DNA of 64,000 nt from contig NZ_KB892740.1 in assembly GCF_000373925.1 (NCBI RefSeq), positions 62,001 through 126,000 of the forward strand, read 5' to 3'. Position numbers and translations under genes: made by a program. Each line of letters opens with the position of its first letter. Position 1 is the first letter of the stretch. Below are positions 1-21,322 of this stretch, one piece after another. The notes under the pieces were generated by a model that was given only the letters and a program-made list of their open reading frames with translations, ran no database searches and had not been told where the DNA came from. Origin of the DNA: Actinopolymorpha alba DSM 45243. GTDB taxonomy: Bacteria; Actinomycetota; Actinomycetes; Propionibacteriales; Actinopolymorphaceae.

Positions 1-299
1 AGTGGATGTTCCGCGCCGAACTGGTCGCGATGCTCGTCGGCCTGGTGGTCACCGTGACCCTGCTCGCGTTGCAACGCTGGGGCGAGGCCACCTGGGTGGG
101 CATCCAGGTGATCGCGTTTTCGACGTCGTACTGGTTCTTCTCCGTACCCCGGGCGACTCTCCTCTGGTTTCCGCTGTGGATGGGACTCGCCGCGCTGGCG
201 GTGCGCTGGACCTGGGTATGGCGGATCTACCTCGTGCTCGCCGTGCCGTTATTCGGAGTGTGGGCGGCGGCGTACCTCACCGGACGATGGTCTGGCTGA
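1..299 (+). CDS. C-terminal end of a multi-pass membrane protein, possibly PIG-V-like mannosyltransferase (partial)
   Basis: The reading frame is open from base 3 and ends at TGA 297-299, so the window cuts into an ongoing gene and the ATG at 6 is probably internal. About 99 residues are visible, almost all hydrophobic, with three to four membrane helices, a short W/F-rich loop (YWFFSVPRATLLWFPLW) and a short polar end. This loop-helix pattern (aromatic, SxPR, then a PLW/PLF helix) resembles the C-terminus of actinobacterial PIG-V-like mannosyltransferases, integral membrane enzymes that use polyprenyl-phosphate-mannose. That family assignment is tentative, as catalytic loops would lie upstream of the window. 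It converges on tyrS with 18 bases between the stops. Confidence 0.5.
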   Translation, partial: WMFRAELVAMLVGLVVTVTLLALQRWGEATWVGIQVIAFSTSYWFFSVPRATLLWFPLWMGLAALAVRWTWVWRIYLVLAVPLFGVWAAAYLTGRWSG

Positions 300-15133: not shown

Positions 15134-16480
15134 TCAGGAGGCGGAGCGTCCCACGGAGGCGCCGGTGACCAACCAGGCGTGGCCGCGTTCTCGTACGACG
15201 AGGGTGACCAGGCGCGCGACCATGAACCCACCGAACGCCCACCAGAGTGCGACCAGTCCCGCGTTCGTGACGAACACCAGCCCGCACAGCGGGAGGAACG
15301 CGACGAGCGTCCACAGGCCGGCGTACGCCAGGTAGCGGCCGTCGCCGGCACCGATGAGGACGCCGTCGAGGACGAACACGACGCCGGCGACGGGCTCGAA
15401 CACCGCGAAGACCAGCACCACCTGCCCGAGGAGGGCTCGCACCTCCTGGTCGCTGGTGAAGAACGGGATGTAGAGCGGCTGGGTCGCCACCATAACGACG
15501 GCGAAGACCGCTCCCGCCGCGAATCCCCACTCGACCATCCGCCGGGTGGCCGCGCGGGTTCCCGTGACGTCTGAGCCGCCGAGATACCTCCCCACGATGG
15601 CCTGGCCCGCGATGGCGATCGCGTCGAGGGCGATCGCGAGGGCGTTCCAGATCGTGAAGGCAACCTGGTGCGCGGCCAGCGATGAATCCCCGAACGACGT
15701 GGCCACGTAGACGGTGGCCACGATCGCGACCCGGAGGGTGAGCGTCCTGACGATCAGCGGGGCACCCGCGTGCGCGGACGCCCGGATGCCTCGCGGGTCC
15801 GGGCGCAGGGACGCGCCGTTGCGCCGTGCGCCGCGGACCACCACGATGACGAGGGCGATCGCGCCGCCCGTCTGTGCGAGGACGGTTCCCCAGGCCGAGC
15901 CGGCGATGCCCCACCCGAACCCGTAGACGAAGAGCAGGTTGAGCCCGACGTTCGCGAGGTACGACGCGCCGGCCACCCACAGCGGCGTCCTGGTGTCCTG
16001 GAGGCCACGCAGCACGCCGGTTCCGGCGAAGGTGAGCAGGAGTGCCGGCATACCGAGGACCGCGATGCGCAGGTAGGTGACGGCGTACTCGTGGACGGCG
16101 GGCGAGGGGTCGAACGCCGAGATCACAGTCGGTGCGACGACCAGCCCGATGACCGCGAGGACGAGACCGAGGCCGAGGGCGAGCCAGAGTCCGTCGATAC
16201 CGAGCGCAAGCGCGGTCCGCCGATCGCCCGCCCCGACCTGCCGGGCGACGGCGCCGGTGGTGGCGTACGCGAGGAAGACGCACAGCCCGACCAGGGTCTG
16301 GAGGGCGGTGCCGGCCAGGGCGAGACCGGCGAGTTGGGGTGTGCCCAGGTGGCCGACGATGGCGGAGTCGGCGAGGAGGTAGAGCGGCTCGGCGACGAGG
16401 GCGCCGAACGCCGGGACCGCGAGGCGGAGGATCTCGCCGTCATGCGGGCTGCGGAGGCGGGGTCGCCATCGTGATGACAC
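15134..16480 (-). CDS. MATE-family efflux transporter (DinF-like)
   Basis: Cation-coupled multidrug exporter with twelve membrane helices in 448 residues, the normal size. Family features include the opening EILRLAVPAFGALVAEPLYLLADSAIVGHLG and the second-half repeat. I chose GTG 16480, which gives VSSRWRPRLR and has CAGGAG 8 bases upstream; longer in-frame extensions are Arg/Pro-rich and run into the DnaA-box region. It is divergent from dnaB, with which it shares a 428-bp intergenic region, and convergent with the serine hydrolase. Substrates unknown. Confidence 0.9.
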   Translation of the reverse strand: MSSRWRPRLRSPHDGEILRLAVPAFGALVAEPLYLLADSAIVGHLGTPQLAGLALAGTALQTLVGLCVFLAYATTGAVARQVGAGDRRTALALGIDGLWLALGLGLVLAVIGLVVAPTVISAFDPSPAVHEYAVTYLRIAVLGMPALLLTFAGTGVLRGLQDTRTPLWVAGASYLANVGLNLLFVYGFGWGIAGSAWGTVLAQTGGAIALVIVVVRGARRNGASLRPDPRGIRASAHAGAPLIVRTLTLRVAIVATVYVATSFGDSSLAAHQVAFTIWNALAIALDAIAIAGQAIVGRYLGGSDVTGTRAATRRMVEWGFAAGAVFAVVMVATQPLYIPFFTSDQEVRALLGQVVLVFAVFEPVAGVVFVLDGVLIGAGDGRYLAYAGLWTLVAFLPLCGLVFVTNAGLVALWWAFGGFMVARLVTLVVRERGHAWLVTGASVGRSAS

Positions 16481-16566
16481 AGGTGCGGCTCCTGGGGAGC
16501 GGGGTTGTCGCGGAGGGGAGCGGGGCGGAGCACGGGCGGCCCGGGGGCGTCCGGCCCTATCCTGCC

Positions 16567-16772
16567 TTGTCCCCAGCTGTGGATACGTAGCCGGTGACCA
16601 GCAGGCGAGAAATTGCACCCCACAGATTTGTGTCCACAGTGTGGGGACGTCGAATGTGCAGGTCAGGCGCCAGATTGTCCCCACCCACAAGCTTCATCCA
16701 CAAAGAAATCCCCAGCCTGTGCACACGGAATCCCCAGGTTCTCCGGCAGTCACCCACAGATGTTGTGGACGA
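16567..16772. promoter_or_regulatory. Cluster of six DnaA-box-like sites upstream of dnaB
   Basis: Nine-mers matching TTRTCCACA at 8 of 9 positions lie at 16567-16575 (+), 16578-16586 (-), 16630-16638 (+), 16675-16683 (+), 16694-16702 (+) and 16764-16772 (-). Weaker TGTGCACA/CCCACAG words lie between. No coding region is evident in 16481-16908 apart from the MATE and dnaB starts. DnaA binding here could regulate dnaB or titrate DnaA; dnaA/dnaN are not present, so this is unlikely to be the classical oriC. Confidence 0.65.
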
Positions 16773-16908
16773 CGAAGTTCTCTGCCAGCGGCTCCTGCGC
16801 GTAGCCTCGTACCTTCCATCGGGCCGCGCCGAAGCGAGGTGTCGGTGGTCGGCGCTAGAACGTCCATTGGATGTTCGTGACGGGTGGAACCACGGAGGGT
16901 CTGCGGCA

Positions 16909-19770
16909 GTGAGTGTGAGTGAGTTTGCCGGCCCGCGTGCGGTCGAAGGCGTTACCGATCGGATGCCACCGCAGGATCTCACCGCCGAGCAGTGTGTCCT
17001 CGGCAGCATGCTCCTCTCGAAGGACTCGATCGCGGACGTGGTCGAAGAGATCCGAGGCCCCGACTTCTACCGGCCCGCTCACGAAACCGTCTATGAGGCG
17101 ATCCTCGACCTCTACGGCCGGGGTGAGCCCGCGGATGCGGTCACGGTCGCGGCGGAGTTGCAGCGCAGGGGTGAGCTCGCCCGGATCGGCGGTGCACCAT
17201 ACATCCACACCCTGATCGCGTCCGTGCCCTCCGCCGCCAACGCCGGCTACTACGCCGCGATTGTGCGGGAGAAGGCGATCCTGCGGCGCCTGGTCGAGGC
17301 GGGCACCAAGATCACCCAGCTCGGCTACGCCGGTGACGGAGAGGTCGACGACGTGGTCGACCGGGCACAGGCCGAGATCTACGGCGTCACCGAGAAGCGC
17401 AGCAGCGAAGACTATGCGGTGCTCGGCGAGATCATGGAGTCCGCGCTCGACGAGATCGAGGCGATCGGCTCGCGCGGCGGGCAGATGGTCGGCGTCCCCA
17501 CCGGCTTCACCGACCTCGACTCGCTCACCAACGGCCTGCACCCCGGCCAGCTGATCGTGGTGGCTGCGAGACCTGGGGTTGGCAAGGCGCTCGCCCTGGA
17601 TACGCCTCTCCCCACACCGACCGGTTGGACGACGATGGGAGAGGTAGCGGTCGGCGACGAACTGATGGGCCCGGATGGCAAGCCCACGAGGGTGATCGCG
17701 GCCACTGACATCATGCTCGGGCGACCGTGTTATGAGGTTGAGTTCTCTGATGGCACGGTGATCATCGCAGACGCCGAGCACCAGTGGAGAACCACAACGC
17801 GAGCGAGCCGCAGGCAGGCAGCAGAGACCAAGCGCACGCTGCACTGGCCAGCCCTTTCAGTGAAACGCGTGAAGGACGCGCAGAAAGCTACGGTTGGAGG
17901 GACGGACAACCTCATCTCGCATCGAGAAGCTGTGGGCTTGGTCGGCGACGGGTTCGAGCACGTCCTCCATACGGTCTGCGCGGGCCTGAGGTGGCAGACG
18001 GTTCCCCGAAGCATCGTTGTTGGCGCAAACCGGAGTTTCCTGCGGCAGACCCAGGTCTACCCCCGACAGGACCTGCCGCAGGCGCTCTTCGAGCGGGTGA
18101 CTCGACCTAAGAATGCTGCCACCACGGCAGTGCACAAGGAGATAGTCACAACTCAGGAAATCTACGCATCGCTACGCTGCGCCAATGGACGGCTGAACCA
18201 TGCGGTGGCCAATGCAGCTTCGCTGACCTTGGTGGAGCAAGAACTCATGCTGCCCCCCTACATGCTTGGGGCATGGCTCGGTGACGGGAGTTCGTATAAC
18301 GCGCAGTTCACCACCGACGATCCTGAGATCGTGGCGTATATCGAGCAGGAAGGGTTACGGGTCACGCCGAACGGCCCCCGCCTGTACACGATCAGCCTTC
18401 CTGCTTCGCCGCCTGTTGCCGAGCGTCTCTGCGTCGTGTGCGGCCACTCCTTCCGGCCCAAGTACACCCAGGCAAAGACCTGCGGTTGGGGCTGCGCAGC
18501 ACGCTCAAGAAATATGGCTCGGTCTGCTCTAGTGAGCTGCCCGGACTGCGGTGGGCCCCTATCCGGTATGGTCCGGTGCCGGATGTGCAGCAAGCACCAC
18601 GGGTCGGTGAAAGCTAGTCTGCGGACCCTCGGATTGCTGAGGAACAAGCACATACCGGTCGAATACCTACGTTCGTCTGAGGCACAGCGTCGCGCGCTAC
18701 TGGCCGGACTTCTTGACACCGACGGCACCGTGACCGGTGGTGGACAAGTCCAGTTCAGCGTGGTCAACGAGCAGTTGGCTTTGGATACCTACGAGTTGGT
18801 GGTCAGTCTCGGATACAGGTGCTCGATGACGACGAAGCGCGTCAACGGTCGAAACGAGGCGTCGTCAACGGCCTACATCCTCACCTTCAGCACCTGTGAT
18901 GACGTGTTCCGTCTGAAGCGCAAGAACACCTTGCACAGGCAGCGTAGGGCAAGTAGCACCACGCGATCGAGTTCCCGTTACATCGTCGATGTGCGCCCCG
19001 TGCCAAGCGTTCCCGTGCGATGTGTGCAGGTGGACAATGAAGATCACCTGTACCTTGCCAGCCGGGCAATGATCCCGACCCACAATTCCATCCTTGCTCT
19101 GAACTTCGCCCGTGCGGCTTCTATTCAGAATAGCCTCGCGTCGGTCATCTTCTCGCTGGAAATGGGCCGTACCGAAATCACGATGCGGCTTCTCTCCGCC
19201 GAATCGCGGGTGCCGCTGCAGCACATGCGTCAGGGCTCGATGAGTGATGACGACTGGGCTCGGCTCGCCCGCAAGATGGGGGAGGTGTCGGGCGCGCCAC
19301 TCTATATCGACGACTCACCAAACATGACGTTGATGGAGATTCGCGCGAAATGCCGGCGTCTTCGCCAGCGTCACGATCTCCGGCTGATTATTCTCGACTA
19401 CCTCCAGCTGATGACGTCAGGTAAGCGCGTCGAAAGCCGTCAGGTTGAGGTCTCGGAATTCTCCCGAAACCTCAAGTTGTTGGCCAAGGAACTCGGAGTT
19501 CCGGTCGTCGCGCTGTCGCAGCTCAACCGTGGTCCGGAGCAGCGCACCGACAAACGCCCAATGCTTTCCGACCTTCGCGAGAGCGGTTCAATTGAACAAG
19601 ATGCAGACATGGTCATCCTTTTACACCGTGAGGATGCGTACGAACGGGAATCGTCGCGCCCGGGTGAAGCTGACTTCATTGTGGCCAAGCACCGTAATGG
19701 CCCGACCGCTGAGATCACGGTCGCATTCCAGGGCCACTACCAGCGTTTCGTCGACATGGCGCAGGGTTAA
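16909..19770 (+). CDS. dnaB: Replicative DNA helicase DnaB, interrupted by an intein
   Basis: Hexameric helicase of the replication fork. GTG 16909 is chosen: GGAGG is 10 bases upstream and the product starts VSVSEFAGPRAVEGVTDRMP, before the DnaB N-domain (PPQDLTAEQCVLGSML). The precursor is 953 residues; removing the 500-residue intein leaves 453, the normal DnaB size. Walker A is rebuilt as ARPGVGK(226)|SILALNFARA; the C-extein has the Walker B region LIILDYLQLM, LSQLNRG and the C-terminal AKHRNGPT. N-extein codons nearly all end in G/C, while the C-extein uses more A/T-ending codons. The Nudix gene follows after 9 bases. Without splicing the ATPase site would be destroyed, so protein splicing is essential. 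Confidence 0.96.
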   Translation: MSVSEFAGPRAVEGVTDRMPPQDLTAEQCVLGSMLLSKDSIADVVEEIRGPDFYRPAHETVYEAILDLYGRGEPADAVTVAAELQRRGELARIGGAPYIHTLIASVPSAANAGYYAAIVREKAILRRLVEAGTKITQLGYAGDGEVDDVVDRAQAEIYGVTEKRSSEDYAVLGEIMESALDEIEAIGSRGGQMVGVPTGFTDLDSLTNGLHPGQLIVVAARPGVGKALALDTPLPTPTGWTTMGEVAVGDELMGPDGKPTRVIAATDIMLGRPCYEVEFSDGTVIIADAEHQWRTTTRASRRQAAETKRTLHWPALSVKRVKDAQKATVGGTDNLISHREAVGLVGDGFEHVLHTVCAGLRWQTVPRSIVVGANRSFLRQTQVYPRQDLPQALFERVTRPKNAATTAVHKEIVTTQEIYASLRCANGRLNHAVANAASLTLVEQELMLPPYMLGAWLGDGSSYNAQFTTDDPEIVAYIEQEGLRVTPNGPRLYTISLPASPPVAERLCVVCGHSFRPKYTQAKTCGWGCAARSRNMARSALVSCPDCGGPLSGMVRCRMCSKHHGSVKASLRTLGLLRNKHIPVEYLRSSEAQRRALLAGLLDTDGTVTGGGQVQFSVVNEQLALDTYELVVSLGYRCSMTTKRVNGRNEASSTAYILTFSTCDDVFRLKRKNTLHRQRRASSTTRSSSRYIVDVRPVPSVPVRCVQVDNEDHLYLASRAMIPTHNSILALNFARAASIQNSLASVIFSLEMGRTEITMRLLSAESRVPLQHMRQGSMSDDDWARLARKMGEVSGAPLYIDDSPNMTLMEIRAKCRRLRQRHDLRLIILDYLQLMTSGKRVESRQVEVSEFSRNLKLLAKELGVPVVALSQLNRGPEQRTDKRPMLSDLRESGSIEQDADMVILLHREDAYERESSRPGEADFIVAKHRNGPTAEITVAFQGHYQRFVDMAQG
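17587..19086 (+). other. Class 3 DnaB intein with LAGLIDADG homing endonuclease
   Basis: 500 residues inserted directly after the Walker A lysine; residue numbers are within the intein. It begins with Ala (ALALDTPLPTPTG) rather than Cys or Ser, and has the WCT set that marks class 3 inteins: W67 (AEHQW), C479 (VRCVQVDNEDHLY) and T498 in PTHN, ending H499-N500 before extein Ser. Block C (MLGAWLGDG) and block E (LLAGLLDTDG) of a LAGLIDADG endonuclease are intact, so homing may still be possible. Between them lie two Cys clusters: C282/C285/C299/C303 and C318/C321/C331/C334. Base composition is lower in GC than the N-extein, consistent with transfer. Confidence 0.93.
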
Positions 19771-20263: not shown

Positions 20264-21322
20264 GTGTCAGCGTTGATGTCGATCGGTGAGTTCGCCCGGG
20301 CCACCGGGCTTGCGGTCAGCACCCTGCGTTTCTACGACTCGGTCGGAGTGCTTGTGCCCGAGCACGTGGACCCGGCTACGTCCCATCGCCGGTACGGCCG
20401 TACCCAGGTAGCCACCGGCCGCCTCGTTGCCCGCCTGCGACGGGTAGGCCTACCCGTCGCTTCGATCCGAACGATCGTCTGCGACATCGATGACAGGGTG
20501 CTCATCCAGGCCGTGCTCGACGAGCACCTTCAGCGGTTGGAGGAGGGGTTCGAGGCCGCGCGTACCGAGCTTGCTCTGCTGACGAACGACCTCACGGATC
20601 CGGAGGGCTTCTCTGCCGCACGCTTCATGACAGATGCCAGGCGCCTGGCGCGCGCCCTTCGGTCTGTCATGTTCGCCCTCCCGGCAGCGCCAGAGTCTGG
20701 CTTGTCAGCCGTCCTGATTGACGTGTCTGGTGATGAGGCCAGGTTGGTGGCAACCGACAGGTACCGGCTCGCGACCTCGGTGGTTCCCCTCGCACGTGGA
20801 ACGAACGCTCAGGCTCGATGTGCCGTGGCCCAGTCAGACCTGGCTGGAGTTCTGGCGTTCCTCGGCAATGTCACTGACCTTGACGTCACGATCGGAGATC
20901 ATCAGCTGCGCCTTGAGGATGGCGAAGAGTCACTCGCGGTGCTCCTCGCTGATGCCGAGTTCCCGAACTACCACGTAGTCCTGAACTCTCTCGACAGCCC
21001 GGCCCACAGCGCCACGATGGATCGTGACTCGCTGCGCGACCTGCTGGAATCAGCTTCGTACCTTCGAGGCGTAGGTCCCGAGAACACCGAGGCCAGGGTC
21101 GTCACTTTGTATTCCAGTCCGGAAGGTTTTGTGAGCACCGAGCCGGCTACCCCGGACCAGGCGCCCATCGTTGTCAACTACGAGTTCCTGCTTCAAGCCG
21201 TGGAGGCGGGGCCCGGCGAGCAACTACAGCTCGACTTCTCCACGCCGATCGCTCCGCTCGCGATCCGCTTCAGCGACGAGCCACGTACTTTCTCCATGCT
21301 CATGCCGACTCGGATCGCATGA
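20264..21322 (+). CDS. MerR-type regulator fused to two DnaN (sliding clamp) domains
   Basis: 352 residues. Residues 5-75 are a MerR winged helix (MSIGEFARATGLAVSTLRFY ... RRYGRTQVATGRLVARLRRVG), 76-118 a helical dimerisation segment. From about 120 the sequence matches domains II and III of the DNA polymerase III beta clamp: FMTDARRLARALRSVMFALP, LVATDRYRLA (161-170), EFPNYHVVL (232-240), PIVVNYEFLLQAVE and the terminal SMLMPTR (344-350), which corresponds to the MPxR end of DnaN. In DnaN these two stretches line the pocket that binds clamp-interacting peptides. Domain I is absent. GTG 20264 and ATG 20276 are both possible starts. Its stop overlaps the MFS exporter start by 4 bases, so the two are translationally coupled. 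Role as effector-sensing activator of the exporter is inference. Confidence 0.85.
   Translation: MSALMSIGEFARATGLAVSTLRFYDSVGVLVPEHVDPATSHRRYGRTQVATGRLVARLRRVGLPVASIRTIVCDIDDRVLIQAVLDEHLQRLEEGFEAARTELALLTNDLTDPEGFSAARFMTDARRLARALRSVMFALPAAPESGLSAVLIDVSGDEARLVATDRYRLATSVVPLARGTNAQARCAVAQSDLAGVLAFLGNVTDLDVTIGDHQLRLEDGEESLAVLLADAEFPNYHVVLNSLDSPAHSATMDRDSLRDLLESASYLRGVGPENTEARVVTLYSSPEGFVSTEPATPDQAPIVVNYEFLLQAVEAGPGEQLQLDFSTPIAPLAIRFSDEPRTFSMLMPTRIA

Follow-up and report, generated by a model that had tools for sequence, protein, structure and literature searches.

Helicase loading limits replication initiation. DnaA is already known at dnaB, the gene for the replicative helicase, in mycobacteria (PMC7738170), and is predicted there in Caulobacter (PMC8203912). 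Mycobacterium tuberculosis DnaA bound five regions in vitro, of which one lies upstream of dnaB and one adjoins the non-coding RNA RVnc0040, and the homologous five regions were bound in vivo in M. smegmatis (PMC7738170). In M. tuberculosis, the variant DnaA I282T showed reduced binding upstream of dnaB, and dnaB was uniquely under-expressed (PMC7738170). The dnaB gene of Caulobacter crescentus has predicted boxes and is a member of the DnaA regulon (PMC8203912). Here we describe the region upstream of dnaB in Actinopolymorpha alba and compare it with dnaB loci and origins across the Actinomycetes.

Results

A Cluster of DnaA-Box-like Sites Precedes dnaB

The window is the whole 64,000-nucleotide stretch that was analysed, positions 62001-126000 of contig C34 in a genome of 7.98 Mb and 127 contigs. 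A first-pass annotation had reported six 8/9 matches to TTRTCCACA at 16567-16772 in front of dnaB, and all six were confirmed at these positions. The features of the region are as follows.

15137-16480, minus strand: MATE-family transporter gene, divergent from dnaB
16567-16575, plus strand: DnaA-box-like site TTGTCCCCA, 8/9; not conserved in the genus
16578-16586, minus strand: DnaA-box-like site GTATCCACA, 8/9; not conserved in the genus
16630-16638, plus strand: DnaA-box-like site GTGTCCACA, 8/9; first of a 64-66 bp pair; TCCACA core in 8/8 family genomes
16658-16666, plus strand: GCAGGTCAG motif, 19 nt past the CCACA of box 16630; motif also in oriC
16675-16683, plus strand: DnaA-box-like site TTGTCCCCA, 8/9; not conserved in the genus
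16694-16702, plus strand: DnaA-box-like site TCATCCACA, 8/9; 64 bp after box 16630; TCCACA core in 8/8 family genomes
16709-16759, strand not assigned: further conserved box-like words ATCCCCAG, TGTGCACA, TCCCCAG and ACCCACAG, from the family alignment
16764-16772, minus strand: DnaA-box-like site TCGTCCACA, 8/9; last box before the predicted promoter; weaker in relatives
16778-16807, plus strand: predicted dnaB promoter TTCTCT-18-TAGCCT, its -35 starting 6 bp past the last box
16909-19770, plus strand: dnaB, replicative helicase, intein-bearing; GGAGGG at 16894-16899

The chance expectation of about 0.1 matches given for uniform base composition is right and, if anything, conservative. At the genome's own rate, 0.030 matches are expected in 206 bp, compared to the six found (Poisson P(≥6) ~1e-12; roughly 2e-7 once all genome positions are allowed for). 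The whole 7.98 Mb genome contains 1148 8/9 matches versus 987 for a reversed control pattern, indicating that the motif is hardly enriched genome-wide, whereas the local cluster is extreme. Counting clusters elsewhere had been proposed as a check. A scan for TCCMCA cores over 526 kb (126 kb of C34 and 400 kb of C1) gave 10 per 300 bp in the dnaB region, 8 in oriC, and 3 at the next best position, leaving the dnaB region and oriC as the only comparable clusters. These clustering statistics rule out chance or a composition artefact as the source of the array. The organism's own oriC (L001:1080-1330, corresponding to C34:27.04-27.29 kb) contains only two 8/9 boxes, fewer than the dnaB region, together with many degenerate boxes.

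The open frame has its first GTG at 16594, but the start codon of dnaB is most likely GTG 16909: an alignment of eight genomes of the family shows a conserved start made up of GGAGG and GTG 16909. A coding explanation of the array was rejected, for although the frame is open from GTG 16594, the family alignment contains indels and its conservation falls mainly in box words. A search for an RNA leader gave zero Rfam matches in 16300-17100.

Several side features of the locus were observed. The dnaB intein spans 17587-19086 (500 residues) and sits at the P-loop (GVGK/ALALD...MIPTHN/S, slashes marking its ends); it has LAGLIDADG homing-endonuclease matches and alanine as its first residue. Long open frames in several related dnaB genes suggest inteins there as well. 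The gene 3' of dnaB (20264-21322) encodes a protein that combines a MerR-type DNA-binding domain with a part resembling the DNA polymerase III beta clamp; across 130 related loci, none was found with a gene of this kind near dnaB. In Streptomyces dnaB leaders (L027-L081), the inverted repeats GCCGTGCC...GGCACGGC and GTCCGC...GCGGAC are conserved directly 5' of the ribosome-binding site and possibly represent a leader structure.

The Array Is Conserved at dnaB across Actinomycetes

Among named relatives, Actinopolymorpha rutila and A. pittospori are the nearest, at 91-92% identity across the N-terminal part of DnaB. Sites 16567, 16578, and 16675, i.e., 3/6, are absent from other Actinopolymorpha, and site 16764 appears in relatives only in the weaker TGTGTAC/TGTGCAT form; sites 16630 and 16694 each retain the TCCACA core throughout the eight-genome family sample. 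Conservation extends beyond the six listed sites to GTGGGGA-, TCCCCAG-, TGTGCACA-, and CCCACAG-type words in the family alignment. Class-wide, the 7-mers TCCCCAG and GTGCACA are enriched ~20-fold. Comparison with related genomes, which the first-pass annotation had suggested, bears out the array as a whole, which is conserved, although single members turn over: about half of the boxes are not kept within the genus.

At 80 dnaB loci from other genomes (Kribbella, Jiangella, Nocardioidaceae, Streptomyces, Embleya, Microlunatus, and others), 300 boxes lie upstream of dnaB versus 114 in 774 kb of flanks, a 49-fold difference. Because this set is rich in Streptomyces, we drew an even class sample of 50 genomes. 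Boxes were present upstream of dnaB in 49/50 (159 boxes in 32.5 kb versus 45 in 243 kb of flanks, 26-fold), the sole genome with zero 8/9 boxes being L114. Among 30 genomes from other classes of the phylum, 21 are without boxes upstream of dnaB, and exceptions such as L157, L162, and L165 raise the average there to 6-fold.

The cluster is still present at 29 dnaB loci without a MATE neighbour (mean of 3.1 boxes), and at two loci where the MATE gene is kilobases away, it is still found at dnaB. We therefore conclude that the cluster belongs to dnaB, and its assignment to the MATE gene was rejected, since dnaB keeps the boxes when the neighbour differs. In nearly all genomes, dnaB lies 23-130 kb from dnaA, so oriC proximity and regulation are not separable by this comparison. 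The only candidate for a displaced dnaB (G008; at least 473 kb from dnaA, 8 boxes) is a draft assembly whose congeners are normal, and we do not take it as proof.

Boxes Are Phased with a -10-like Hexamer

A same-strand spacing of 65 ± 1 bp occurs 41 times in 59 class sequences (at most 16 times in any of 300 randomisations), with 11-12 bp in second place, and same-strand spacings overall have a 10.9-bp period (R of 0.71 versus a null maximum of 0.28). Downstream of the last box, the -10-like hexamer TA[CG][CG][CG]T (TASSST) was found 35 times versus 3.4 expected, a ~10-fold excess to be read with the hexamer class having been chosen after viewing the alignments and the sequences sharing descent. 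The hexamer peaks at 28-32, 41-43, 50-54, and 63 bp past the last box, i.e., at helical-turn distances, and one at ~29 bp puts the start of the -35 element ~5 bp past the box. The Streptomyces consensus, TTGGCT-17-TACCGT, lies immediately 3' of TGTGGATAACC. A simple sigma-70 scan, which covers GC-rich promoters poorly, gave no match. This arrangement, boxes followed by a predicted promoter, is what one would expect for an activator bound upstream.

A Motif Is Common to the dnaB Region and oriC

In 58 dnaB upstream regions, CAGGTCA occurs 24 times on the sense strand (2.6 expected), whereas the opposite strand has only two copies. The motif (one mismatch allowed), preceded at 18-36 bp by a box core, is found in 24/63 upstream regions, 0/63 on the reverse strand, and 2/342 flank segments. 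When 25 genomes were searched for CCACA-N(14..25)-GCAGGTCAG, 13 dnaB regions had exactly N19 and one had N20; outside dnaB regions, the N19 spacing of CCACA and GCAGGTCAG occurs in only five places. The class oriC consensus reads TAGTAGG-gcGGTGGA-AC-TGTGGATAAC-(about 12)-GCAGGTCAG, and the organism's own oriC contains TGTGGATAAGAAGGATTTCTGCAGGTCAG at C34:27.1 kb. Both here and in three further genomes, a strict oriC-type pattern matches oriC alone. Variants of the form CAGCTCAG are found in the oriC of L200, L208, and L212; no GCAGGTCAG was called in the oriC of L196, L198, L199, L206, and L209, and none was recovered from the dnaB upstream regions of the Mycobacterium-like and allied genomes examined (L116, L122, L125).

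A box-N19-GCAGGTCAG cluster of the same build was also observed elsewhere, at L214:5134-5424 and L217:4969-5262 (both plus strand), with extra boxes and a GTTGAC...TAGCGT/TAGGTT promoter-like site. It precedes a conserved hairpin RNA of ~80 nt (folding z of -4.2 and -5.4), beside a gene for a YgjP-like metallopeptidase. This RNA has no Rfam match, for which reason we rejected 6C sRNA as its identity. Action of 6C sRNA on dnaB mRNA has been reported in M. smegmatis (PMC8628891).

GCAGGTCAG may be used by a putative second factor or by DnaA itself in an oriC-like geometry. MtrA is a candidate binder; a paper on S. venezuelae lists oriC, dnaA, and dnaN, with dnaB unmentioned and no motif printed in its text. 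The MerR/beta-clamp-like protein was rejected as a binder, given that its gene is found near dnaB at 0/130 loci. Among the matches listed for the literal GCAGGTCAG with oriC or DnaA, there is no report on a chromosomal origin. We offer, as a tentative though serious possibility, that GCAGGTCAG, placed beside boxes at a near-fixed distance in both oriC and the dnaB region, is bound by an actinomycete factor not yet described (or marks a special DnaA contact); it would tie origin firing to helicase synthesis, and in at least two genomes a third such site precedes the undescribed hairpin RNA.

Discussion

The region is probably the upstream control region of dnaB, with a DnaA oligomer on the phased array mainly activating dnaB transcription. 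A cooperative DnaA oligomer would occupy the phased boxes, which lie at about -342 to -137 relative to the start codon, and the array would adjoin the promoter, with the -35 element a few bases past the last box. Bound DnaA would mainly activate transcription, so that helicase supply would track active DnaA. That DnaA regulates dnaB, which the first-pass annotation had suggested as an alternative to titration, is well supported by the class-wide, dnaB-tied conservation, by boxes in phase with a conserved promoter-like element, and by the mycobacterial binding and expression data (PMC7738170); it probably does so as an activator. The mycobacterial data, C. crescentus dnaB, and the box geometry together make activation by a DnaA oligomer the best-supported reading, and we infer both that DnaA activates rather than represses and that this is valid in A. 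alba.

In several bacteria, DnaA switches between activating and repressing its own gene, and it could repress dnaB or hold its expression constant by such switching. The last boxes adjoin the predicted -35 element, which oligomers could occlude; against this, the boxes lie upstream of the predicted promoter at phased distances, and weaker DnaA I282T binding accompanied lower, not higher, dnaB expression (PMC7738170). We regard this explanation as improbable. Somewhat less so, but still unlikely, is a DnaA titration or inactivation locus near oriC, comparable to E. coli datA or the high-affinity S. coelicolor clusters, in which the array would sequester DnaA after early duplication and delay re-initiation, any effect on dnaB being secondary. 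We retain it because dnaB nearly always lies 23-130 kb from dnaA, a position that would suit such a locus, as would the six 8/9 boxes here compared to two in the organism's own oriC. Against it stand the phasing of the boxes relative to a promoter-like element, their persistence at dnaB despite a changed neighbour, and the dnaB under-expression that accompanies loss of DnaA binding in M. tuberculosis (PMC7738170).

The boxes and GCAGGTCAG common to oriC and the dnaB region might also suggest a second, origin-like unwinding site. TAGTAG (the DnaA-trio) is present in 0/58 dnaB upstream regions versus 7/21 oriC regions, however, making the dnaB region an unlikely origin. In A. alba, its lowest 40-bp GC is 0.475 versus 0.40 in oriC, the class medians (0.475 and 0.45) being close. 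We consider a second origin very improbable.

If activation of dnaB by DnaA is correct, its class-wide occurrence would build a link between initiator activity and helicase supply into the Actinomycetes, including mycobacteria. In our literature search, with most subscription papers outside its reach, we came across neither the class-wide arrangement, phased and composite, nor the motif common with oriC. GCAGGTCAG is the most novel element of the region, and a short DNA probe carrying this common motif could provide a handle on a possibly missed actinomycete origin factor.

Comparison with Known Systems

Escherichia coli datA, which acts with IHF on DnaA-ATP, is likewise a DnaA-box cluster outside oriC; here, the array precedes a predicted promoter. 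The Streptomyces coelicolor extra-oriC clusters H24, H69, and D78 (J. Bacteriol. 2006) reportedly lie within an oriC-centred segment and were studied as titration/timing sites. Cosmid H24 may cover the dnaB upstream region, which we treat as a lead only. Actinomycete oriC (the dnaA-dnaN intergenic region) likewise contains boxes, with GCAGGTCAG beside a box, but differs in having two core boxes in tandem and, in part of the genomes, the TAGTAG trio; the dnaB region is without the trio and has a different box-to-motif distance.

We know of no phased array or co-motif at dnaB of C. crescentus, which belongs to another phylum. This gene likewise has predicted boxes upstream, and its expression is DnaA-dependent (Hottes 2005, reviewed in PMC8203912). 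Mycobacterium-like and allied genomes differ from the present locus in their box sequences and in that GCAGGTCAG was not recovered upstream of dnaB (L116, L122, L125) or in the L206 oriC. The M. tuberculosis dnaB upstream region (Rv0057 region) and its M. smegmatis homologue nevertheless concern the same gene in the same bacterial class, and DnaA binds there in vitro and in vivo (PMC7738170).
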